A stretch of DNA of 36,284 nt from Bacteroidaceae bacterium (GTDB lineage Bacteria; Bacteroidota; Bacteroidia; Bacteroidales; Bacteroidaceae): assembly GCA_017938245.1 (NCBI GenBank), contig JAGBBX010000044.1, positions 1 through 36,284 on the forward strand, given 5' to 3'. A program made the translations under genes and the position numbers. This document shows positions 1-31,048 of the stretch, piece by piece. Position 1 is the stretch's first letter. Every line of letters starts with the position of its first letter. The notes under the pieces are model-generated. The model was not told the origin of the DNA and did no database searches. It saw nothing but the letters and a program-made list of their open reading frames with translations.

Positions 1-137
1 TCTTTAAGTTCGCGGATGGTTGCATCGGAACCTATACCAACATATAAGTCGCCATACGTAGCAGCCTCCTTAAAAAATGCCACGTGTCCCGAGTGTAACA
101 TATCGTAACATCCCGAAACAAAAACTTTCTTAGCCAT
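1..137 (-). CDS. Nucleotidyltransferase (cytidylyl-/adenylyltransferase fold), N-terminal part only
   Basis: The gene runs off the left edge of the window; only about the first 45 codons are visible. The reverse complement starts at ATG 137 and reads MAKKVFVSGCYDMLHSGHVA and onward. The HSGH near residue 16 is the HxGH nucleotide-binding motif of the cytidylyltransferase-like superfamily (TagD, RfaE C-domain, CoaD types), preceded by the usual hydrophobic strand VFVSGCYD. Members transfer NMP from CTP or ATP to phosphorylated or phospho-sugar substrates. The substrate cannot be told from this fragment. Its start codon lies only 24 bases past the last tRNA-like element (162-218), so the repeat array would form its 5' leader if both are co-transcribed. 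Confidence 0.8.
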   Translation of the reverse strand, partial: MAKKVFVSGCYDMLHSGHVAFFKEAATYGDLYVGIGSDATIRELK

Positions 138-161
138 AATAATATGTGTTTATTCTTTTGT

Positions 162-277
162 AGCAACCGGTGGAATTGAACCACAAACTTTTCACAAAGT
201 CCCTCCTGTGCGGTTGCTCACACCCTCGATAATTATTGTTATTATGGATTTTTTTTTCCTTTGGAGCAGAGGGTGTG
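162..277 (-). ncRNA. tRNA-like structured element, copy 1, with 5' hairpin
   Basis: Read on the minus strand, a hairpin stem CACACCCTC/GAGGGTGTG (277-269 with 227-219) is followed without a gap by the 8-bp acceptor-like stem AGCAACCG/CGGTTGCT (218-211 with 169-162). Inside lie an anticodon-like hairpin with loop TTGTGAAA and a T-arm GTGG-TTCAATT-CCAC that fits the tRNA T-loop consensus. Relative to the other copies one base is lost in the D-arm-position linker (GGAGGG instead of GGTAGGG). One G-C pair of the anticodon-like stem has become G-U, which keeps the pairing. It lies directly upstream of the nucleotidyltransferase start. Confidence 0.6.
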
Positions 278-390
278 TTTTCCTATATTATACCTGGTTA
301 CCCAAAAATGGCTGTTGCAGTGTTTAACCATTTTGGCGTTTGGTATTGTTTTTGATTTTGTATAAATCTCGTTTGTAATTTACTCTTTGT

Positions 391-503
391 AGCAACCGGT
401 GGAATTGAACCACGAACTTTTCACAAAGTCCCTACCTGTGCGGTTGCTCACACCCTCGATTATTGTTATTATGGAATTTTTTTCTTTTGGGGCTGAGGGT
501 GTG
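391..503 (-). ncRNA. tRNA-like structured element, copy 2, with 5' hairpin
   Basis: Minus-strand fold: a 9-bp hairpin (503-495 with 457-449, 37-nt loop) abuts an 8-bp acceptor-like stem (448-441 with 398-391). The linker CACAGGTAG stands where a D-arm would be. It is followed by stem GGACT/AGTTC (431-427 with 418-414, one G-U pair) around loop TTGTGAAA, and then T-arm GTGG/CCAC with loop TTCAATT. The core without the extra end pair is 56 nt, against about 73 nt for a normal tRNA. There is no D-arm, no variable loop and no encoded CCA. The loop triplet GTG would read as a His anticodon, and the extra A-U pair at position -1:73 recalls the -1 nucleotide of tRNA-His. An alternative pairing CACA (440-437) with TGTG (425-422) competes with the anticodon-like stem. 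Confidence 0.6.
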
Positions 504-619
504 TTTTCCTATATTATACCTGGTTCCTTAAAAAATGGCTGTTGCAGTGTTTTAACCATTTTGGCGTTTGGTATTATTTTTGAATTTGTAAAAAATCTCG
601 TTTGTAATTTATTTTTTGT

Positions 620-731
620 AGCAACCGGTGGAATTGAACCACGAACTTTTCACAAAGTCCCTACCTGTGCGGTTGCTCACATCCTCATTAAATGTTATTA
701 TGGATTCGACGTTTTTTAGAATTGAGGATGT
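620..731 (-). ncRNA. tRNA-like structured element, copy 3, with covarying 5' hairpin
   Basis: The tRNA-like core (677-620) matches copy 2. The upstream hairpin has changed sequence but not pairing: ACATCCTCA/TGAGGATGT (679-687 with 723-731). The C-G pair 453:499 of copy 2 is T-A here (682:728), a compensatory change, and a T-A pair is added at the loop end. The loop keeps only the segment TCCATAATAACA (minus strand) in common with the other copies. A promoter-like TAACTTTG lies 28 bases upstream on the same strand, so this is the promoter-proximal copy. Confidence 0.6.
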
Positions 732-758
732 ATGTTGCTGTTTTTATCTAATGTTCCG

Positions 759-800: not shown

Positions 801-1298
801 TTATTTAAGTTCTATGACTCTGTTAATATCGGCAATATACCCGGTTTCGTCTTTGAAGCGCGCTCTGGCAACATTACAGGCTGTAACTGCTTTTGGCCTT
901 TGTTTATTGCATAATTGTGCTTTAATGGTTGAGGTGCACAATATCTCGGGGTGTGCTTTCTTGAAATGCTCTATGCTTGATTTTAACTGTAAAAGCCCAT
1001 CGCTAACCCAGCCTTGTGAGTCTCTGTCTTTCAGTTCTATAAAGATAAGATTGTTGTCGTGCTTTAAAAGACCATCGCAACGGTTATCCATAGAATTATC
1101 GGGGCGCAGAGTAGTAATGCAATTATCTATAGGGTAGAACGTTGCTGTTTTATTCCGGTGGTTTACTACTTGGGCAACCCACTTGCTGATATCTGTAATG
1201 TCAATATATGCAGGTGTCAGGTTTTGATCGTCGCATAAACCAAAATCTTTTGCATTGGTGGTTTGGGCATATATGCTGTTAAAGAAATTTACTTGCAT
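801..1298 (-). CDS. Small PD-(D/E)xK-like nuclease candidate paired with an ATPase
   Basis: The protein has 165 residues and no name I recognise. Residues 75-90 read DGLL, then LIFIELK, giving Asp75, Glu88 and Lys90 in the D-(x)n-E-x-K spacing of PD-(D/E)xK nucleases. The strand before ELK is hydrophobic. A QLKSS segment about 14 residues later resembles the helix motif that follows the core in Mrr- and VRR-like enzymes. It overlaps the 3' end of the upstream ATPase gene by 10 bases, implying translational coupling and a shared function. No membrane segment or signal peptide is seen. Nuclease activity is inferred from the motif only; it could also be a substrate-binding partner that kept the fold. 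Confidence 0.6.
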   Translation of the reverse strand: MQVNFFNSIYAQTTNAKDFGLCDDQNLTPAYIDITDISKWVAQVVNHRNKTATFYPIDNCITTLRPDNSMDNRCDGLLKHDNNLIFIELKDRDSQGWVSDGLLQLKSSIEHFKKAHPEILCTSTIKAQLCNKQRPKAVTACNVARARFKDETGYIADINRVIELK

Positions 1299-2497
1299 AG
1301 GTCTTCTAATTCTAAAAGTTTGGTAAATCTCTCGTTGCTGCCTGCCAGGCTGTTATTGAGGAGGTTCTCGTCCGATGGCATTCCTTTGTAGCTGTCCAAT
1401 AGCGAGTATTTGCCAGTGGCATCATTGAACTCATATACATGCAGTTGGGACGGATGTATATATGAACCGGATGGTACTATCTGTTCAAGTTGTTCGGTTT
1501 GCTCGGAATTTGCTATTTGTTTTATTGAGTGGGCCTTGACAAATAGTGCCAAATAGTTGATGATGTATGGACTGTGTGATGTCATTATCAACTGGTTTTT
1601 ATCGCATATATTGTTCATGCGGAGCAGACTGGCAAGAACTTCCCATTGGCTTGAGGGAAAAAGATTCTGTTCGGGTTCTTCGACAATGTTTATGAAACTG
1701 GACTTGTTGAACCGTGCCGGAAGTGTAGAGATGGCGGCACGCCTCTGTTCTTCGGTAAACTTTTTATTCTTGACAATGTCAGATAACAATTTCTTGAATC
1801 TCTCTCTTTCGTCTTCGGACATTGGCGTCTGTTCCGATTTAGTCAATATTGATTGTGATAGATTATCTGAAACTATATAAAGAGGTATAAAAGACTGATA
1901 GCCACTGGAAACTTCGCTAACGCGCAGTTTGTAGTCTTTGCCTTTTAGATGGAGAATGTCGTTTTGACGGTCGTACTCTAAACTGGCATCGGCTATTGGT
2001 AGCTTGTACTGACCTTTGATGTTTTTTTGAGCATTTTTGTATTCATCGCGAAACTCTCGTAAAGATGGTGATGATACTTTGAGTTCTTTGAAGGTTTCGA
2101 TATATGTCAAGAAGTTGCGCTCGGCCGGAACATACATTATCTGGGGCAGTTCAAAGGTTGTATTGTTTTTAGTCCTGGTAATGTGTAGATTTCCCTCTTC
2201 GAATGTGAAGTTATAGGAGTCACCTATATATTCGATTCGAGTATCAGGCATCAGATAGTTATGGATTCTATTATAGGACAAGAATGTGTTCTTGAATTTC
2301 GATTTGCGCTCAATGTTCTTGATTGTATAGTCGCCTCTGTTCAGTGCTTTCTCTATCCACAAGAACGTAGAAATGAGCTTGGCTACTGTGCTCTTTCCAG
2401 AACCTTGGTTGCCTATTAGAAGGGTTACTTTATCTATGTCGATCCAATTATCGTTATCTTTTAAAGGACCGAAGTTCTGTACTCTTATTTTTGACAT
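1289..2497 (-). CDS. AAA family (ABC-like, AAA_15/AAA_21) ATPase, putative defence component
   Basis: A 402-residue cytoplasmic ATPase of the OLD/RecF-like ABC class. Walker A is GNQGSGKST at residues 29-37. VPAERN near 123-128 is typical of these predicted defence ATPases. The ABC-type signature SSGYQ is at 197-201. Walker B with the catalytic Glu is INIVEEPEQNLF at about 269-280, and the H-switch TSHSP is at 306-310. The protein is complete, starting at ATG 2497 just past the WecC region. Such ATPases usually act as sensors or motors for a partner effector, and here the overlapping downstream nuclease-like gene is the obvious partner. Known comparable pairs include PARIS (AriA/AriB) and Septu (PtuA/PtuB), but the partner fold differs, so I assign no system name. 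Confidence 0.8.
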   Translation of the reverse strand: MSKIRVQNFGPLKDNDNWIDIDKVTLLIGNQGSGKSTVAKLISTFLWIEKALNRGDYTIKNIERKSKFKNTFLSYNRIHNYLMPDTRIEYIGDSYNFTFEEGNLHITRTKNNTTFELPQIMYVPAERNFLTYIETFKELKVSSPSLREFRDEYKNAQKNIKGQYKLPIADASLEYDRQNDILHLKGKDYKLRVSEVSSGYQSFIPLYIVSDNLSQSILTKSEQTPMSEDERERFKKLLSDIVKNKKFTEEQRRAAISTLPARFNKSSFINIVEEPEQNLFPSSQWEVLASLLRMNNICDKNQLIMTSHSPYIINYLALFVKAHSIKQIANSEQTEQLEQIVPSGSYIHPSQLHVYEFNDATGKYSLLDSYKGMPSDENLLNNSLAGSNERFTKLLELEDLCK

Positions 2498-2607: not shown

Positions 2608-3813
2608 TTATTTCTTGTATATTCCGCAGAAATCGAGTATTACTTTGTTCTTGTCGTAGGGTAGTGTCTTGAATTGGTCGTGCGCGGTGAGCATTACAAC
2701 GATGTCGGCTTTTGCAAAAGCATTCTCGTAGGGAGTGAGCTTGTATACGTTGTGTTCTTTTACATTGGGCTCGACAACGAGGATGCTTGCTCCATTGCAT
2801 ATTTGCATTACTTTGCCTACTATGTGGCTCGAGGGCGACTCGCGAAGGTCGTCGATGTTGGGCTTGAAGGCGAGGCCCATCATTGCTACAACGGGCTTGC
2901 AGTTGTTTTTCAACTCGAACTCGAGTATGGCGCTGCGTACTTTCTCGGCACACCACATCGATTTATAATTGTTTATCTCGCGTGCTGTGGCTATGATGCG
3001 TGCTTCGGCAGGGTAGTCGGCTGTGATGAAATAGGGGTCTACTGCGATGCAGTGGCCGCCTACACCGCAACCGGGTTGCAGAATGTTCACGCGGGGGTGT
3101 TTGTTGGCGAGGGTTATCAGCTCCCATACGTTGATGCCTGCTTTTTCGCAGATGAGCGAGAGCTCGTTGGCAAAGGCTATCTGTACGTCGCGGCTGCTGT
3201 TCTCGGTGAGCTTGCACATCTCGGCGGTGCGGCAGTTGGTTCGGTGTAACTCTCCTTGTACAAATTGTGAGTAGAATTCTATTGCTTTTTCGGTGGACTC
3301 GGGGGTGAGACCGCCTATAACGCGGTCGTTATGCACAAGTTCGTATATTACATTTCCGGGGAGTACGCGCTCGGGGCAGTAGGCTATGTATATCTTATCT
3401 TTTAGCTCGGGGCGCTCGGTGAAGATGATATCGGCCATCTTCTCGGTGGTGCCTATGGGTGAGGTCGATTCTATGACGTAGAGGTCGCCCTCTTTTAAAT
3501 AAGGTAATACGGCACGTGTGGCTGCTTCGACGTATGAAACGTCGGGTTCGTGGTCGCCTTTGAAGGGGGTGGGGACTACCATAAAGTAGGCATCGCTCTC
3601 CCGAGGTGTGGTGTAGGCTTTGAACTTGCCTGTGGCGATAACCTCTTGTAACATCTCTTCCATTCCAGGCTCTATAATGTGCAGAATGCCTTGGTTCGTT
3701 ACTTCAACAACTTTTTCATTTATATCAACTCCAATAACGTCTATTCCGTGTTTTGCAGCTATTATCGAGGTGGGAAGGCCGATGTAGCCGAGTCCCATAA
3801 AACAGGCTTTCAT
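2608..3813 (-). CDS. wecC: UDP-N-acetyl-D-mannosamine dehydrogenase
   Basis: A 401-residue cytoplasmic NAD-dependent dehydrogenase that oxidises UDP-ManNAc at C6 to UDP-ManNAcA, a precursor of surface polysaccharide. The Rossmann motif GLGYIGLPTS sits at residues 7-16 and the second strand ends in Asp30, which selects NAD. Nucleophile Cys255 lies in GGHCIAVDP and the conserved Lys is at about 201 (MCKLTENS). The length fits the family. It lies 45 bases downstream of wecB, whose product supplies its substrate, so assignment as WecC rather than another UDP-sugar 6-dehydrogenase is well supported. Confidence 0.93.
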   Translation of the reverse strand: MKACFMGLGYIGLPTSIIAAKHGIDVIGVDINEKVVEVTNQGILHIIEPGMEEMLQEVIATGKFKAYTTPRESDAYFMVVPTPFKGDHEPDVSYVEAATRAVLPYLKEGDLYVIESTSPIGTTEKMADIIFTERPELKDKIYIAYCPERVLPGNVIYELVHNDRVIGGLTPESTEKAIEFYSQFVQGELHRTNCRTAEMCKLTENSSRDVQIAFANELSLICEKAGINVWELITLANKHPRVNILQPGCGVGGHCIAVDPYFITADYPAEARIIATAREINNYKSMWCAEKVRSAILEFELKNNCKPVVAMMGLAFKPNIDDLRESPSSHIVGKVMQICNGASILVVEPNVKEHNVYKLTPYENAFAKADIVVMLTAHDQFKTLPYDKNKVILDFCGIYKK

Positions 3814-3858
3814 TATGCGTATCTTATTTTTTCTGTTTTTTATGGTTTATATGTGTAC

Positions 3859-5010
3859 TTATTTCAATGCTTCGACTATTCTGCCGCAAGCGAGTCCGTC
3901 GCCGTAGGGGTTGACGGCTTTGCTCATTGCATCGTAATGTGTAGGACTGTCGAGCAGAAGCGATACTTCGCTTACTATCTTGTTGTAGTCGGTTCCAACG
4001 AGTTTTACTGTGCCGGCTTCGAGGGCTTCGGGGCGCTCGGTGGTGTCGCGCATAACCAGTACGGGCTTACCAAGGCCGGGGGCCTCTTCCTGAATACCGC
4101 CGCTGTCGGTGAGGACAATGTGGCTCTTTTCCATAAGGTAAACAAAGGAGAGGTATTCCAATGGCTCGATGAAGAACATATTGCCAAGGCTGCTGAGGTC
4201 TTGCCCGAACACTTCGTGGATGGGTTTGCGTACGTTGGGGTTCAGGTGCATAGGGTAGACAAAATCTACATCGGGATACTTCTGTGTCAAGTTTTTGATG
4301 GCTGTGCACATACTGATGAATCCATCGCCGAAGTTTTCGCGTCGGTGACCGGTGATGAGAACTAATCGCCGGCCGCTTTCGAGACGTGTTACATCGTAAC
4401 CTGTTTCGGCAAGATGGCTCTTGAGTCCGCTTGCCAAGGTCTTGTTCTCGTTTATCTTGTTTACAACCCAATGGAGGGCATCAATTACAGTGTTTCCTGT
4501 TACGGTTATGCTTTCGGCTTTGATTGCTTCGCACAGCAGGTTTTGTTTGCTAAGGGTGGTGGGGGCAAAGTTGTAAGCTGCTATTCGGCTTGTTATCTGC
4601 CTGTTCATCTCCTCGGGCCAGGGGCTGTATATGTTGTGTGTGCGTAGGCCTGCCTCGACGTGTCCGACGGGTATCTGTTGGTAGAATGCTGCGAGGGCTG
4701 CTGCTGTACTTGTTGTTGTATCGCCGTGAACAAGAACGACATCGGGGGTGGACTCTTTCAGTACGTCGCGCATTCCTGTGAGGACGCGTGCTGTGACATC
4801 GTAAAGGTCTTGTCCCTGTTTCATTATGTTCAGGTCGTAGTCGGGGGTTATCTCAAATAGCTGTAATACCTGGTCGAGCATCTGACGGTGCTGGCCCGTT
4901 ACACATACTATTGTCTTGAAGGTTTCGGGATGTTTCTGGAACTCTTTTACAAGTGGGGCCATCTTAATGGCTTCGGGGCGGGTTCCAAAAACCAACATTA
5001 CTGTTTTCAA
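3859..5010 (-). CDS. wecB: UDP-N-acetylglucosamine 2-epimerase (non-hydrolysing)
   Basis: A 383-residue enzyme converting UDP-GlcNAc to UDP-ManNAc by an elimination/addition mechanism in a GT-B fold. The N-terminus VFGTRPEAIKMAPLV is diagnostic. Also present are VHGDTTTSTAAALAAF, HVEAGLRT and PWPEEMNRQI, which carry the conserved acidic residues, and TGHRRENFG with the catalytic His. The C-terminal TDSGGIQEEAP and RDTTERPEA motifs bind the UDP portion. It lies between ugd and wecC in a leftward operon (64 and 45 bp spacers) and feeds WecC directly. Confidence 0.95.
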   Translation of the reverse strand: MKTVMLVFGTRPEAIKMAPLVKEFQKHPETFKTIVCVTGQHRQMLDQVLQLFEITPDYDLNIMKQGQDLYDVTARVLTGMRDVLKESTPDVVLVHGDTTTSTAAALAAFYQQIPVGHVEAGLRTHNIYSPWPEEMNRQITSRIAAYNFAPTTLSKQNLLCEAIKAESITVTGNTVIDALHWVVNKINENKTLASGLKSHLAETGYDVTRLESGRRLVLITGHRRENFGDGFISMCTAIKNLTQKYPDVDFVYPMHLNPNVRKPIHEVFGQDLSSLGNMFFIEPLEYLSFVYLMEKSHIVLTDSGGIQEEAPGLGKPVLVMRDTTERPEALEAGTVKLVGTDYNKIVSEVSLLLDSPTHYDAMSKAVNPYGDGLACGRIVEALK

Positions 5011-5074
5011 ATTCGCTAATATATTATTAAATGTTTGTATTTTGGTTATTGTCGTCTCTTGCGAGATGAGTAGT

Positions 5075-6394
5075 TTAATCTCTTTGGAATATATCTCGGG
5101 TGTATACTTTATCTCTTACATCGTCGAGACAAGTATCGTAGCGGTTGGCTATAATGGCTTGCGACATCTCTTTGAACTTGTCGAGGTCGTTTACAATGCG
5201 GCTGCCGAAGAAGGTGCTGCCATTCTCTAATGCAGGCTCATATATAATAACTTCGGCACCTTTGGCTTTTATACGTTTCATCACTCCTTGAATAGAGGAT
5301 TGACGGAAATTGTCGCTGTTGCTCTTCATCGTCAGTCGGTATACGCCTATTATGCACTCTCTTTCGTCGGTGGCGCTGTAGTCGCCTTTGCTATAGTAGT
5401 CGTAATAACCGGCTTTTCGCAGCACTTGGTCGGCAACGAAGTCTTTACGGGTGCGGTTGCTGTCGACAATGGCGGTCATCATATTCTGGGGCACGTCCTG
5501 ATAGTTGGCAAGTAGCTGTTTGGTGTCCTTAGGGAGGCAGTAACCACCATATCCGAAGGATGGGTTGTTGTAGTGGTCGCCGATGCGTGGGTCGAGGCCT
5601 ACGCCTTGGATGATTGCCGCCGAGTCGAGTCCTTTTACCTCGGCGTAGGTGTCAAGCTCGTTGAAGTAGCTTACACGCAGCGCTAAATATGTATTCGCGA
5701 AGAGTTTAACAGCCTCGGCCTCCTTGAGTTCCATAAACAGGGTGGGGATATTCTCTTTTATCGCTCCTTGTTGCAGGAGTTTTGCGAAGGTGTGTGCTGC
5801 CTCTTCGAGGTGATTGCCGGCAATGGCTTTTATGGCTTCGTTCTCTTCGCCGAACTTCTCTATCATCTTGGGGTAGCCAACGATAATGCGGCTGGGGTAG
5901 AGGTTGTCGTAAAGTGCCTTGCTCTCGCGAAGGAACTCGGGTGAGAAGAGCAAACGGAACTTATGTGTTGTGTCCCAACCTTGCTCCTTGAATTTCTGTG
6001 CATACTTTACATATAGGCTGCGGCAATAACCTACGGGTATGGTACTTTTAATAACCATTGTTGCCTCGGGGTTTGCCTCAAGTACAAGGTCGATAACATC
6101 CTCGATGTGATGTGTGTCGAAGAAGTTCTTCTGTGGATCGTAGTTTGTTGGTGCTGCAATAACCACAAAATCGGCATCTTTGTATGCTGCTGCTCCGTCA
6201 AGTGTGGCTGTGAGGTCAAGTTCCTTCTCGGCAAGGTATTTCTCGATGTATTCGTCCTGAATAGGCGAGATGCGATTGTTTATCATTGCTACCTTTTCGG
6301 GGACAATGTCTACCGCAATAACCTTATTATGCTGTGCCAAAAGGGTGGCTATGCTTAACCCTACATATCCTGTGCCGGCAACTGCTATTCTCAT
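5075..6394 (-). CDS. ugd: UDP-glucose 6-dehydrogenase
   Basis: A 439-residue nucleotide-sugar dehydrogenase making UDP-glucuronate from UDP-glucose with 2 NAD. The Rossmann motif GTGYVGLS is at residues 7-14, APTNYD at 81-86, STIPVGY at 117-123, and catalytic Cys286 in [10 protein letters not shown]. The N-terminal half resembles the enterobacterial Ugd type more than WecC. The protein is about 50 residues longer than the roughly 390-residue enterobacterial enzyme. It is the first gene of the ugd-wecB-wecC group, so the operon would supply both UDP-GlcA and UDP-ManNAcA for capsule or O-polysaccharide. No glycosyltransferase or polymerase is encoded nearby in this window. Confidence 0.9.
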
Positions 6395-6831: not shown

Positions 6832-6904
6832 GCGGTAGTAGCTCAGTTGGTAGAGCATTGGCTTCCCAAGCCGAGGGTCGCGGGTTCGAGTCCCGTCTAC
6901 CGCT
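6832..6904 (+). tRNA. tRNA-Gly (anticodon CCC)
   Basis: A complete 73-base cloverleaf: acceptor GCGGTAG/CTACCGC, D-arm GCTC with loop AGTTGGTAGA, anticodon stem TTGGC/GCCGA with loop TTCCCAA (anticodon CCC), variable loop GGGTC, and T-arm GCGGG-TTCGAGT-CCCGT. The discriminator base is T and CCA is not encoded. It reads GGG glycine codons. It serves as an internal contrast to the D-arm-less tRNA-like elements at the left end. Confidence 0.97.
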
Positions 6905-7170
6905 CAAAAAAGATAATTGATTATTTTCCAATAATTTACATCGCGCAGAGAATAAAGACGACTTCACAAAAAGCCTTTTTTGTGTTTTTTTTCACCTAAA
7001 ATCGCGCAAACCTGCATACAAATAGCTTGCAAATTTCAAACCGTCAGTGTGGAGCCATTTTGTTGTTCTCCTATAAATGTTCTCTATACACAATCAAAGC
7101 ACGACATTCGGTGGACGATGATTTTGAATACTACGCCCGCTTCGGTGTCGAAACATTTATGGTAAAAATA

Positions 7171-7863
7171 TTATACAATATTCTCGAGTAGAATTGCGGC
7201 GCCCACAGTCATACATCCTGCCACTGCAACAGAGAGGCTGCTCATTGCTCCTTCTATCTCGCCAATCTCCATAGCCTTAGATGTTCCCATTACGTGAGTA
7301 GAGGTGCCTATGGCAATACCCTTTGCTACAGGATGCTTAATACCGAATATATTACAAAGAATATCTCCTGCTATATTACCAAAGAGGCCTGTGATTATAA
7401 TTGCTGCAACTGTTATTGCAATGTATCCGTCGAGTTCTTGTGATAGTCCTATGCCAATAGCTGTGGTAATTGATTTTGGCAACAGGGTGACATACTCTTT
7501 ATGCCCCAAAGTAAATAGAATTGACATTGCTGCTATTGTTACGCCGCTTGTCAGCACCCCCGATGCAATGCCTATGAGAATTGCCGTTGCATTCTTCCTC
7601 AGCAGTTGAATCTGCTCGTACAGAGGTATTGCCAAGCATACGGTGGCGGGTGTAAGCAGTGTGCTTATTTGGCTTGCTCCACTATTGTATTTGCTGTATT
7701 CTATACCTGTGATTGCAAGTACCGAGATTGATATTGCTATGGCAACAAGTAGGGGGTTGAAAATGAATATATTGAATCGCCTTTTCAGTACAACGCCAAG
7801 AATATAGGCACCCAAAGTGAGTATAATGCCAAAAAAGATGGAATTCTCGAAAAATTCTTTCAT
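7171..7863 (-). CDS. lrgB: LrgB/CidB family membrane protein
   Basis: A 230-residue, almost wholly hydrophobic protein with about six or seven membrane segments. Diagnostic family segments are LLTPATVCLAIPLYEQ, LLPKSITTAIGIGLSQELDG and GIAIGTSTHVMGTSKAMEIG. It overlaps lrgA by 4 bases (ATGA), so the two are translationally coupled. LrgAB/CidAB proteins have been linked to murein hydrolase export, cell death control and, in some species, pyruvate uptake or glycolate/lactate handling. The role here cannot be chosen from sequence. Confidence 0.9.
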   Translation of the reverse strand: MKEFFENSIFFGIILTLGAYILGVVLKRRFNIFIFNPLLVAIAISISVLAITGIEYSKYNSGASQISTLLTPATVCLAIPLYEQIQLLRKNATAILIGIASGVLTSGVTIAAMSILFTLGHKEYVTLLPKSITTAIGIGLSQELDGYIAITVAAIIITGLFGNIAGDILCNIFGIKHPVAKGIAIGTSTHVMGTSKAMEIGEIEGAMSSLSVAVAGCMTVGAAILLENIV

Positions 7864-8222
7864 TTGCGGCCTCCTTTCTCTTTAAGCCTGATTATAAGCT
7901 GCGTTATTCTTCCCGATACAGCGAGTACAAACACTGTCGACACCAGCGAAATTATTATTATTGCAGCCAAAAACTGTTGCATCACCTCCCACGACTCGAT
8001 GAGTCCGACTGTCGGTGGTATGAACATTATAGGCATAATGTATATAAGAAATTTACCCGTCTCCTTCACAGCCGAGAGTTTCAGCGCTCCTGTGCTGAGC
8101 AGTGTGAAAAGAATAGTCATACCATATATGCTTGCAGGGATAGGTAATGGAATTATCTTGTTGAGTAGTTCTCCTATAAGCGATATTGCAATAATAATTG
8201 TAAATTGTCCTATGTACTTCAT
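7860..8222 (-). CDS. lrgA: LrgA/CidA family holin-like membrane protein
   Basis: About 120 residues with four predicted membrane segments. LLNKIIPLPIPASIYGM and the following hydrophobic run match the LrgA/CidA family. I choose the internal ATG at 8222 (MKYIGQFTII) and not the in-frame ATG at 8252, because the promoter element at 8250-8257 overlaps the latter and the ten extra residues are polar and untypical. The gene is first in a two-gene operon with lrgB. Upstream lie two copies of a 38-base repeat, one of which supplies the promoter. Confidence 0.87.
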   Translation of the reverse strand: MKYIGQFTIIIAISLIGELLNKIIPLPIPASIYGMTILFTLLSTGALKLSAVKETGKFLIYIMPIMFIPPTVGLIESWEVMQQFLAAIIIISLVSTVFVLAVSGRITQLIIRLKEKGGRK

Positions 8223-8466: not shown

Positions 8467-9348
8467 ATGAGCATAGAAGATAGAAGAAAAGAGGCATTGT
8501 CAAACCTTAAAGACGATTTTAAACTATTAGGAATTGCATTTCAACGATTGTGGCGCGATGTCGTAGAGTTAATAAAATGTATAAGAATAGGGAAAATTGA
8601 ACTCGGAAGAATCAACAATCGATTACTGTTGATGTTACTTCTCGTAGCAGTTGTTGGAGTGATTCTTTTCTTCACAATGCGCAGTTGCGATAGCAACGAA
8701 GCACCCGAAGACCCCGTCTCGACCGAGACGCGCCCACCTTATGCATTTAAACGTCAGCCACGTGTGCAGCGTCCCGAAGTCAAGCATAGAATTTTAGGAG
8801 CGAGCATAAGAAAGCATTTCAACGACCTTAACGATACCCATTTGGCAGTGGCAAAAAAGATTGGTATTGCACCATTGGCATCACGTGATGCTGTTGACGA
8901 CGCAAGCCGCAAACTTGTTGAGGTAAACGATTCCGACGCATATATTGTAGACAAACTTACACATTCGATTCCCTTTCTGGTTCCCGAAGCAGCAGCACTG
9001 CTAAAGCGTATTGGAGAGAATTTTCAGGATTCACTTGTGATGAAACACCTGCCTCCGCATAAGATAATTGTATCGTCGGTGTTGCGTACACAAAGTGATG
9101 TAAAGAGGTTGGGTCGAAACAATGTGAATTCCTCGAAGAATTCGGCACATTGTTATGCAACAACAATGGATATTACTTATAAGCGCTTTTTCTCGGAGTA
9201 TGGCGAGGAAATTGACAAAACAGGTAAACTTAAACACGTCCTCGAAGAGGTTCTTCGCGATCTTAAACTGCAAGGATGTTGCTACATTAAGCACGAAAAG
9301 AAACAGGCCTGTTTCCACATTACAGCACGAAGATTCCCGAAAGAGTAG
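8467..9348 (+). CDS. DUF5715-like, M15/LAS-type metallopeptidase, membrane-anchored
   Basis: A 293-residue protein: cytoplasmic N-terminal helical part (1-50), one membrane segment (about 53-69), then a periplasmic domain. The C-terminal domain has the D-Ala-D-Ala carboxypeptidase (M15, VanY/LAS) motif set: SSVLRT at 203-208 with the conserved Arg, S226-A-H228 with Asp235 (SAHCYATTMDI), and a second metal His in CFHIT at 284. Members cleave peptidoglycan stem peptides or related bonds. The canonical SxHxxGxAxD signature is degenerate (T replaces the small residues), which is typical of DUF5715. It is a single-gene unit ending in a strong bidirectional terminator. The exact substrate is unknown. 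Confidence 0.75.
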   Translation: MSIEDRRKEALSNLKDDFKLLGIAFQRLWRDVVELIKCIRIGKIELGRINNRLLLMLLLVAVVGVILFFTMRSCDSNEAPEDPVSTETRPPYAFKRQPRVQRPEVKHRILGASIRKHFNDLNDTHLAVAKKIGIAPLASRDAVDDASRKLVEVNDSDAYIVDKLTHSIPFLVPEAAALLKRIGENFQDSLVMKHLPPHKIIVSSVLRTQSDVKRLGRNNVNSSKNSAHCYATTMDITYKRFFSEYGEEIDKTGKLKHVLEEVLRDLKLQGCCYIKHEKKQACFHITARRFPKE

Positions 9349-9441: not shown

Positions 9442-11217
9442 CTAATTAAATAGCTCGTCTCGCTGAACGTAAGCAATAATGTCACCTCGGTTGACGTGTG
9501 CGCCTTGCTTTGCGCAAACCTCTACCACACGACCGCCAAGACCTGTGGCAACGGGCTGAAGTTCGCCCCACGATGTGATAATAGTGCAGAACTCCTCATC
9601 GGCTGCAAATTTCTTTCCTATTGCAGGGGGTAGTGAGTCGCCATCGGTAGAGACCTCCCACAACAGCTGTCCCTTTACAGGTGCTACAATGGGGTCGGCC
9701 TTAGCGTGTTTGATGGCAAGAATCTCCTCGGCGCTTACACCCTGTTTGGCAAGCTGAGCCTCCTTTGCTTTCTCAATGTCGGCAAGGAAACGCTCCTTTG
9801 CAACACCGCTTCTGAAATCGCGATATTGGCGATCGTGCATAGCAAACTCGAACAACTCTTCGTCATCCTCGCCTGTATCCCAACCAAGCTCTTCCATCTC
9901 TTTGCGATACTTGTCAAGTGCATCGGGATAGAAACTCTGCGGGTCGGCAGTGGTAAACTCATAGCCTTTCTCTTTGGCAAGCTCAATAATCTCGGGAGCA
10001 AGTTCGCCGGGCAGCTTACCGCTCTTACCAAGAATCATACCCCACATACTCTCGTCCATACGGCTGAAACGTGGCTCGTCCTGTGCGTTGCTGAGAAGGT
10101 TCATCAAAGCGATGTTTTTGACATACTGGCTGAAAGGTGTAACGAGTGGGGGATAGCCTACGCGGGGCCATACGTATGCAACCTCGTTGAATAGCTCAAC
10201 CATAAGCTCGTCGAGTGTGTATGTGGGTTTTCCTTTGCTTGCGAGAATACCGTTTATGCCTTTATGAACGCCTGCGAGGTCGGACATCATTGAACCCATC
10301 ATACCGCCGGGAAGTCCGCTGGTAAGCAGCAGTGAACTCATCAGCTTATTATTGCTATCCATAAAATGACCCATCCATTCGTCTATGAATTGCTGTGTTA
10401 AACTACGAGCTTTCATATAAGCATTCATATTGATTTCAGGGACTTTAAAGCCTGCATCTTTAAGCATTGCTTGAACACTTATTATATCGGGATGAACCTT
10501 ACCCCAAGATAGCGGTTCGATAGCAGTGTCGATGATATCACAACCATTTTTACATACCTCGATGATAGATGCCATAGAGAGGCCGGGGCCGCTGTGTCCG
10601 TGATACTGTATAATGATAGAGGGGTGTTTCTCCTTTATACTCTTTGTCAGGCGTCCGAGGAAATCAGGACGTCCTATTCCTGCCATATCCTTTAAACAAA
10701 TTTCGGCAGCTCCGGCTGCAATAAGCTCATCGGCCATATTGCTGTAATACTCTACAGTGTGTACCGGAGAAGATGTTATACAGAGCGTTGCCTGAGGAAT
10801 CATTCCTGCCTCAAGTGCATATTTAATCGAAGGTATGATATTTCGTACATCGTTCAGACCGCAGAAAATGCGTGTAATATCGGTTCCTTGCGCCTTCTTG
10901 ACCTTATACATCAGACGGCGAACATCGGCCGGCACAGGGAACATTCGCAGCGCGTTGAGTGCGCGGTCGAGCATATGTGTCTGTATTCCTGCTTCGTTAA
11001 AAGCTTTTGTGAAACTGCGTACAGCCTTGTTGGGGTTTTCACCTGCCATCAGATTCACCTGTTCAAATGCACCTCCGTTGGTCTCGACACGTGCAAAGCA
11101 ACCCATTTCGACAATAACGGGGGCTATTTTTTCTAACTGTTCAGCCAGTGGCTGGAACTTACCCGACGATTGGAACATATCGCGGTAGACCAAACTGAAT
11201 TTTATCTCTTTTTCCAT
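9442..11217 (-). CDS. OadA/PycB-like carboxyltransferase with a biotinyl-like domain lacking the biotin lysine
   Basis: A 591-residue protein of the oxaloacetate decarboxylase alpha/pyruvate carboxylase subunit B family. The N-terminal TIM barrel (about 1-310) has RDMFQSS in place of RDAHQS, then ARVETNGGAFEQV, FCGLNDVRN, CLKDMAG (the active-site Lys) and the metal ligands in YHGHSGPG. The PYC_OADA-like part contains LPGGMMGSMMSDL. The C-terminus (about 515-591) looks like a biotin/lipoyl attachment domain (APVKGQLLWEV, then GGRVVEVCAKQGAHVNRGD). Where the biotinyl Lys motif (A/V)MKM should be, near residue 550, it reads ITSWGE, so this domain cannot carry biotin. The enzyme may use a separate biotin carrier subunit or may not be a carboxylase. 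It is monocistronic, with a TAACTTTG promoter upstream. Confidence 0.8.
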   Translation of the reverse strand: MEKEIKFSLVYRDMFQSSGKFQPLAEQLEKIAPVIVEMGCFARVETNGGAFEQVNLMAGENPNKAVRSFTKAFNEAGIQTHMLDRALNALRMFPVPADVRRLMYKVKKAQGTDITRIFCGLNDVRNIIPSIKYALEAGMIPQATLCITSSPVHTVEYYSNMADELIAAGAAEICLKDMAGIGRPDFLGRLTKSIKEKHPSIIIQYHGHSGPGLSMASIIEVCKNGCDIIDTAIEPLSWGKVHPDIISVQAMLKDAGFKVPEINMNAYMKARSLTQQFIDEWMGHFMDSNNKLMSSLLLTSGLPGGMMGSMMSDLAGVHKGINGILASKGKPTYTLDELMVELFNEVAYVWPRVGYPPLVTPFSQYVKNIALMNLLSNAQDEPRFSRMDESMWGMILGKSGKLPGELAPEIIELAKEKGYEFTTADPQSFYPDALDKYRKEMEELGWDTGEDDEELFEFAMHDRQYRDFRSGVAKERFLADIEKAKEAQLAKQGVSAEEILAIKHAKADPIVAPVKGQLLWEVSTDGDSLPPAIGKKFAADEEFCTIITSWGELQPVATGLGGRVVEVCAKQGAHVNRGDIIAYVQRDELFN

Positions 11218-30593: not shown

Positions 30594-30659
30594 GCGAAGT
30601 AATGAGTAAAGCTTCTTAAAATTTCTCTTTTTTTTTTGTCATTTATTGAGTATATTTCG

Positions 30660-30916
30660 TATCTTTGAGATAAATCTCGAAGATTTAATGCACTCGCTGC
30701 AAAATATTCAAGCAAGCTTGATATTATTTTGCTCGTTTTTCGTATATTTGAGATAAATCTCGAAGATTTAATGTACTCGCTGTAAAATAATCAAGCAAGC
30801 TTGATATTATTTTGCTCGTTTTTCGTATCTTTGAGATAAATCTCGAAGATTTAATGTACTCGCTGTAAAATAATCAAGCAAGCTTGATATTATTTTGCTC
30901 GTTTTTCGTATCTTTG
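30660..30916 (+). repeat. Three tandem 83-bp repeats, each with a Bacteroidota promoter element
   Basis: TATCTTTG, TATATTTG, TATCTTTG and TATCTTTG start at 30660, 30743, 30826 and 30909, an exact 83-bp period. Each unit runs: -7 element, GAGATAAATCTC palindrome, GAAGATTTAATG, (C/T)ACTCGCTG, CAAGCAAGCTTGATATTATT, TTGCTCGTTTTTCG, next -7 element. The last -7 element is followed by a different sequence leading to the MORN gene. The motif order also occurs, inverted, upstream of lrgA (8251-8364). Confidence 0.85.
30909..30916 (+). promoter_or_regulatory. Gene-proximal -7 element of the MORN gene
   Basis: TATCTTTG, an exact consensus match, is the last of four regularly spaced elements and lies about 133 bases before the chosen ATG. 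Confidence 0.55.
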
Positions 30917-31048
30917 CGGTAAACGCAAATATGCGCTGCAAAGAGTAGATGTTGTGGTGAGACTGTACTATTGGTGATGTCCGGCTACTTTGTTTGCTGT
31001 AATACAGAGTGTCAATTTTGGCGCTTGCTACATACAAAAAAGACAAAA

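Follow-up and report, generated by a model that had tools for sequence, protein, structure and literature searches.

Mitochondria possess tRNAs that are poor in D-arms, and their tRNA structures mark cut sites between genes, an arrangement known as tRNA punctuation. Structured RNAs also occur in exopolysaccharide operons, where the EAR and LoaP antitermination RNAs adopt a fold that differs from the one described here. Operators of the thrS style have a tRNA-like fold that is bound by a tRNA-binding protein, and integron attC sites carry conserved R and L core boxes in their stem. tRNA-like structures in mRNAs are already known as a kind, and work by Li and Altman (2003) is reportedly tied to those that are cleaved by RNase P. 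As presented in one source (PMC11143913), RNase P-cleaved tRNA-like structures are found in mRNAs, phage RNAs and plant-virus RNAs, some of them within a polycistronic message, and are individual cases. The yjdF riboswitch, as another source describes it (PMC9142559), combines a tRNA-like fold and a D-loop/T-loop elbow upstream of an ORF with a T-loop that pairs with the Shine-Dalgarno sequence, and it has no free 3' terminus.

Here we describe a family of compact RNAs, marked by strong covariation, which neither Rfam nor a tRNA finder reported where tested. It occurs in surface-polysaccharide operons of gut Bacteroidaceae, next to defence genes, and in one phage. In contrast to the individual RNase P-cleaved structures, it is a conserved family with a common signature and placement, and a predicted substrate. 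Unlike yjdF as portrayed in that source, its elements are intercistronic, have a tRNA-type 3' end and show no such platform that we noticed. They resemble the D-arm-poor mitochondrial tRNAs in their reduced D-arm and their position between genes, but they reside in bacterial and phage genomes and are not decoding tRNAs. With the EAR and LoaP RNAs they share the setting of a structured RNA within polysaccharide operons, although no linked NusG paralogue was found near them. No published description of the family turned up in the literature searched, a body that excludes subscription journals and preprints; intercistronic mini-tRNAs that form a conserved family in bacteria and carry a tRNA-type 3' end are, as far as checked, new.

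The DNA analyzed (the window) is a stretch of 36,284 nt from a Bacteroidaceae bacterium (GCA_017938245.1, contig JAGBBX010000044.1, positions 1 to 36,284 of the forward strand). Its minus strand encodes three near-identical mini-tRNA cores of 57-58 nt each: copy 1 at 162..218 (N73 at 161, C74 at 160; 73.9 bits with covariance model R3, described below), copy 2 at 391..448 (N73 at 390, C74 at 389; 72.3 bits) and copy 3 at 620..677 (N73 at 619, C74 at 618; 73.5 bits). By strand order, the distal copy 3 would be transcribed first. An earlier sequence-only reading of this DNA had placed three tandem tRNA-like cores at these same positions, and TRF recovered the 229-bp unit that it reported as a tandem array at 149..705, without strand assignment, of 2.4 copies and 91% matches. 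That reading's acceptor-like stem of 8 bp, end pair included, is likewise present as an 8-bp P1 (AGCAACCG/CGGUUGCU) in all three copies. In copy 2, P1 comprises 448-441/398-391, the mini D segment 440-432, P2 431-427/418-414 and the T-arm 413-410/402-399 with its loop at 409-403, all on the minus strand; the T-arm of the window copies reads GUGG-UUCAAUU-CCAC.

Flush with the 5' side of each core lies a minus-strand stem with a long loop: at 219..277 for copy 1 (219-227 with 269-277, 9 bp), at 449..503 for copy 2 (449-457 with 495-503) and at 678..731 for copy 3 (678-685 with 724-731). The stem was seen in the sequence of all three copies, for copy 2 also in a fold of window positions 385-525, and copy 3 differs from copies 1 and 2 by one compensatory change from C-G to U-A. 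No such stem was noted by eye in the flanks of elements from other genomes. Folded alone, the window cores are modestly more stable than shuffles (z of -2.32, -2.32 and -1.79); with the 5' flanking stem, z is -3.35. Just upstream of the array, at 759-766 on the minus strand, is the sequence TAACTTTG, which we take to resemble the Bacteroidetes -7 box and which may be a promoter for an array transcript.

Copy 1 adjoins the start of a gene that by eye is cytidylyltransferase-like (1..137, minus strand, cut by the contig end), its P1 ending 24 nt (counted by eye) before the start codon; a homologue of this gene in genome G003 (L137:7443-8582) matches PF01467. Upstream of the array on the minus strand are a gene for a 165-aa protein (801..1298), which has no Pfam match and matches the candidate defence protein PDC-M29B (5.3e-51), and one for an AAA ATPase (1289..2497), which matches PDC-M29A (3.1e-165). 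This candidate defence pair (801-2497) sits within a polysaccharide operon, directly upstream of the array. Nucleotide-sugar genes follow at 2608..6394 on the strand of the elements, namely a UDP-sugar dehydrogenase (2608-3813), a UDP-GlcNAc 2-epimerase (3859-5010) and a second UDP-sugar dehydrogenase (5075-6394). In the related genome G015, a single element separates a dehydrogenase gene from a cytidylyltransferase gene, both of the kinds seen here, and the defence pair is absent.

In order to find relatives, we searched 61 genomes at the DNA level, which gave six clear homologues, all in the genus, together with many short matches; the four of these that were looked at (L010-L013) were judged by eye to be coding or chance. 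Covariance models were then available from 7 sequences (R1) and from 12 sequences (R3). R1 gave strong matches (E < 1e-17) in 8 of 44 genomes of the genus, one per genome except for the three of the window genome, and across 393 genomes of the order a single strong new genome, G392, which was also the only hit of a pattern scan (1/393). Within the family of G392, model R2 matched one of 41 genomes. With R3 at E <= 1e-4, the family of the window yielded matches in 30 of 349 genomes, spread over 13 of 30 genera, seven of the 30 genomes being in the genus. The samples of genomes overlap between searches, and absence from a genome is weakly tested because in the large searches no more than 13-19 candidates were scored for each genome. 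Among 80 named loci (L023-L102), three carry an element, those of G015, G004 and G003 (L023, L025 and L030).

Applied to the retrieved contexts, R3 gave 39 members, 38 of them distinct, from eight genomes within the genus, 23 others within the family, G392 of another Bacteroidales family and one phage contig (L175). Doubtful rows were kept in the 39: the identical, GC-rich L212 and L213 with loop CCCGCUA, L215 (31.9 bits), L233, which has no sense ORF called downstream, and L230 8824-8876, which has hardly any P2. Three matches from the genus (L111-L113, 18.6-20.7 bits) were set aside. Thirteen of 17 weak matches from the order (L118-L134) are ARAGORN tRNAs; the other four are L119, L120, L124 and L133, and L120/L144 (G208; 29.0 bits with R3) may be a diverged member. 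Across 395 genomes of the class, R2 matched the window genome and nine genomes in which the matches are tRNA-Met or tRNA-Phe (L166-L174, rejected), and R3 in a phylum sample of 277 genomes matched only the window genome and G1359, the latter rejected as a tRNA-Ile. Viral pattern scans returned 0, 1, 1, 4 and 13 contigs, of which R2 at E <= 0.1 retained only L175; one element compared with a plasmid collection had no match. A covariance model built from the three copies and searched against Bacteroidales had been proposed at the outset, and the search carried out along these lines returned the 39 members with compensatory changes; judged on these sequences, the existence of the RNA family is practically certain.

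The element resembles a canonical bacterial tRNA (RF00005) in having acceptor and T stems that add up to 12 bp, a T-loop of the form UUCRANN, an elbow GG and an N73-C74 end; it differs in its core of 57-58 nt, a D-stem of at most 2 bp, and the lack of a variable loop and of a conserved anticodon. P1, the acceptor-like stem, has 8 bp and the T-arm (P3) 4 bp with a nearly invariant loop UUCRAUA, so that the ruler of 12 bp is divided as 4 + 8 versus 5 + 7 in tRNA. This bears out the claim of a tRNA-like T-loop, which is conserved across the family. Between the T-loop and C74 there is no gap or insert in 36 of the 39 rows, and the 14th base is C in 35 of those 36. The statement that there is no D-arm needs qualification: no D-arm of 3-4 bp was found in 38 rows, the D-stem having at most 2 bp, yet a nearly invariant segment CAYAGGUG is retained in its place, and most rows could form a mini D-stem of 2 bp (first pair C-G in 33, U-A in 3, other in 2; second pair A-U in 32, G-U in 2, other in 4, and missing in window copy 1). 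The first G of AGG would face the second T-loop base as an elbow contact (G-U in 34 rows, A-G in 2, G-C in 1 and A-U in 1); three rows have AAG for AGG, and two of these have G instead of U as second loop base, fitting a G18-U55-like contact, while the third (L214) does not; the elbow correlation rests on these three rows. The P2 hairpin is mostly 4-6 bp with a loop that is free in sequence, with 32 different strings in 38 rows and 2 to 20 nt in the alignment; a conserved anticodon arm with a 7-nt loop and a usable anticodon is thus absent. GUG does lie in the hairpin loop of the window copies as first described, but in the P2 loop nowhere else in the family (the trinucleotide turns up somewhere in the P2 arm in 7 of 38 rows, the three window copies among them), and the suggestion of a histidyl-tRNA synthetase decoy was abandoned on these counts.

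An ordinary tRNA was rejected: ARAGORN made no call at the element in the 33 of 39 rows that were covered (window, L106, L117, L175, L212-L235), and in the window both ARAGORN and Rfam reported only a tRNA-Gly at 6832-6905. The window elements do not reach the Rfam tRNA gathering score, their best sub-threshold match being tRNA-Sec with 17.4 bits versus 47. In the 24 of 39 rows tested against Rfam 15, some of them at gathering score only, no family matched, the yjdF riboswitch included, in keeping with the earlier remark that no bacterial family like this was known.

Across the 38 distinct rows, two-sided changes occur in every pair of P1 (8) and P2 (5) and in 3 of the 4 pairs of the T stem, and 96.7% of 630 cells hold a standard pair. 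Cells with a two-sided change number 210, where shuffles gave 65.5 +- 7.8 and slid controls 14-40, and the covariation score is 0.855 versus 0.278, results that are favoured by an alignment fitted to the structure of the model. A cruder and less telling measure, the number of pairs with any two-sided change, gives 16 of 17 against 13.2 in shuffles, with 3 of 500 shuffles reaching 16. An earlier alignment of 12 rows had 13 of 17 pairs with two-sided change, and seven rows aligned by MAFFT gave a small signal of 3 pairs, a number that 18 of 500 shuffles also attained. When 1.76 Mb of loci were scanned with a descriptor that fixed only the T-loop letters, the 11 elements known at the time and 3 others were found, versus 0-4 matches for each of four altered T-loops. 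The alignment holds 53 G-U cells versus 9 A-C cells (29 versus 9 without the G-U-rich pair 21-56); therefore, the RNA corresponds to the gene-sense strand. Competing pairings exist, the commonest of which lack covariation and fail in many rows. The absence of homologues with compensatory changes had been named as grounds for refutation; covariation is seen in the P1, P2 and T stems alike. By this comparative evidence, the element is a conserved RNA fold on the sense strand between same-strand genes. A tRNA pseudogene was rejected, as decay would not preserve pairing via compensated changes.

C74 is present in 38 of the 39 elements, position 75 is A in 31, and 18 end in ACAA, with N-C-A-A the most frequent tail; the sequence just downstream has 60 C among 585 bases (10%). 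As a control we took all 46 RF00005 matches of the window genome, of which one encodes CCA and 45 do not, so the absence of CCA that had been pointed out is true of the elements and is not distinctive. All 45 CCA-less tRNAs (42 of 42 distinct) have C74, 25 have A75, and ACAA is their commonest end (10/45); C makes up 14 of 225 bases at positions 77-81. A first sample of 44 CCA-less tRNAs (C74 in 44, A75 in 35, ACAA in 24) was replaced by this control as biased, because many of its tRNA-Phe and tRNA-Met loci were recruited by the model itself; without the model-recruited tRNAs, C74 occurs in 21 of 21, A75 in 14 and ACAA in 5. The control strengthens the likeness to a tRNA end at C74 and weakens it at position 75, and it did not shift our estimate for the mechanism proposed below. 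Since C74 is encoded throughout the window genome though CCA is not, and the elements share it, their 3' end is of the tRNA type. As an observation on the genome itself, the encoding of C74 in all 45 CCA-less tRNAs suggests its use by RNase P before 3' trimming.

The elements lie between same-strand genes. Counting the window array once, we tallied 37 sites, with a polysaccharide-type neighbour at about 30, some of these assigned by similarity to a tested homologue; elements often lie between nucleotide-sugar and assembly genes, and a UDP-sugar dehydrogenase-like gene is directly upstream at 16. The seven other sites are L234, with AbiLi and RloB-like genes upstream, L214, with an AbiLi-like gene upstream, the phage contig L175, and L219, L221 5617-5676, L233 and L215, which have no assigned context or are doubtful. 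The element begins 7-23 nt past a called stop codon in 18 of 39 rows and is not close to one in 21. A called downstream ATG, available for 33 rows, is 12-35 nt away in 20, 43-62 nt in 6, beyond 100 nt in 6 and 6 nt in 1; window copy 1 (24 nt) and L136 (15 nt), whose ORFs are cut by contig ends, fit this spacing by eye.

From this build and placement we propose that the elements are cis-acting tRNA mimics that expose operon mRNAs to RNase P and/or RNase Z, a proposal to which we assign nearly even chances. The acceptor/T stack, elbow and C74 would make the element an RNase P substrate that is cut 5' of P1, and RNase Z might also cut after N73. Such cuts would split the operon message, leave the downstream gene with a short A-rich leader, and uncouple the lifetime or expression of upstream and downstream genes. 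The anticodon-like hairpin would be filler, hence the free variation of P2. Of the features looked for in an RNase P substrate, the T-loop, the elbow and a stacked acceptor and T stem of about 12 bp are present, as judged by covariation. The RNase P RNA of the window genome contains GGU at what, judging by the layout, we take to be L15. In PMC11143913, L15 is the partner of R73-C74-C75. R73-C74 of the elements can match the L15 of the host; C75 is mostly absent, leaving two of the three pairs possible, as for nearly all of the genome's own tRNAs. Several findings count against processing: at N-1, 22 of 39 elements have A and 11 have U, versus U in 30 of 46 own tRNAs; by plain energy folding just 12 of 38 rows adopt the full fold and 14 the T-arm, the covariation fold lying a median of 3.6 kcal/mol above the minimum energy and within 2 in just 2 rows; CAYAGGUG is conserved beyond the needs of a bare elbow; and the placement is loose in the 21 of 39 rows away from a called stop codon and in the 13 of 33 whose called ATG falls outside 12-35 nt. 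Still, of the uses first suggested, that of a tRNA mimic or tRNA-processing substrate emerges as the best reading, via the T-loop, the GG of the mini D-loop, the 12-bp stack and the N73-C74 end. Were it true, the element would be a portable operon splitter linking tRNA maturation to glycan gene expression, and the family also appears to illustrate how small a part of a tRNA is enough for selection to maintain a tRNA-like end.

Next in rank, and unlikely in our estimate, is translation enhancement, whereby a tRNA-like leader contacts the ribosome and raises initiation of the next cistron, as is reported of yjdF and of cis-tRNA leaders, with no cleavage needed. Bacteroidetes mostly lack Shine-Dalgarno initiation, which suits this explanation, as does the 12-35 nt spacing to the ATG in 20 of 33 rows. 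However, six of those 33 called ORFs start more than 100 nt away (for the L175 row there is a shorter ORF at 41 nt), and C74 would have no obvious role. In PMC9142559, translation in vitro rose 2 to 6.3-fold when authentic tRNAs preceded an ORF, and changing ACCA to UAAU cost little. It is because of the C74 signature that we favour cleavage over mere ribosome contact.

Distinctly improbable is a ligand-binding switch, or an operator bound by protein, that controls the next cistron. The near invariance of CAYAGGUG and UUCRAUA would befit it, as would the recurrent dehydrogenase-like gene upstream, and the T-arm might face competition from a GGU/ACY pairing, which is present in some minimum-energy folds. 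That pairing lacks covariation, though, no conserved expression platform was noticed, the downstream genes are diverse, and the defence and phage contexts have no evident metabolite in common. A transcription-elongation (antitermination) RNA of long polysaccharide operons, like EAR, put or a LoaP leader, is more doubtful still. It would explain the roughly 30 of 37 sites in polysaccharide clusters, and of 17 genomes searched 16 encode NusG-domain proteins; yet in the nine element-bearing genomes searched they lie on contigs other than that of the element, 7 of 8 genomes without a found element have them too, and G032, which has an element, has a single match. An UpxY/NusG partner was rejected for want of linkage on the same contig, and antitermination offers no reason for the defence and phage contexts or for the tRNA-like 3' end. 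A DNA-level element by which polysaccharide, defence and phage genes are shuffled, either a recombination joint or a folded single-strand site like attC, is very improbable. In its favour, the contexts consist of mobile modules, the gene upstream of the element is common to G022 and G017 while the downstream side differs, and the window array is a tandem triplication of units about 91% alike. However, the strand-specific G-U excess, the C74 end and the ATG spacing are RNA properties, and P1 is free in sequence, with no fixed crossover core seen. An attC site as such was rejected, its core boxes having no counterpart in a P1 that varies freely with compensation.

To return to cleavage, it may well be, though we put the chances at somewhat below even, that Bacteroidales chromosomes and phages use a dedicated class of minimal non-decoding tRNAs as mRNA punctuation read by RNase P and RNase Z, a counterpart of mitochondrial punctuation, with one phage contig apparently doing so in several successive gaps. 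That contig, L175 (IMGVR_UViG_3300031994_002654), carries its family member at 8552-8616; a small ORF ends 9 nt ahead of it and another starts 41 nt beyond it, the small ORFs being mechanical calls. ARAGORN called no tRNA on it, and its region had no match in a phage collection; the primase encoded on it shares 45.5% identity, across 71% of the query, with the primase of Bacteroides phages, LoVEphage among them. Neighbouring gaps between small ORFs hold two more tRNA-like structures that are poor in D-arm and fall outside the sequence signature of the family: one at 7536-7592 on the plus strand, with a 7-bp acceptor, a 5-bp T-stem and a G-C (N73-C74) end, and one at about 7938-7996 on the plus strand, with an imperfect acceptor. 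Their shuffle z values are only -2.05 and -1.35, respectively. In LoVEphage itself, a single sequence near the Rha gene (L196 23592-23637; MW660583.1 59592-59637, minus strand) is another candidate, 46 nt long and similarly built, with ACAA directly after it.

Two repeat features were observed in addition. Palindromes of the CCCATA type flank the element, as seen by eye, in two genomes (L140 about 8522-8555 and 8684-8715; L141 about 10480-10515), and the window contains an 83-bp tandem repeat at 30655-30923, of 3.2 copies and 96% matches.
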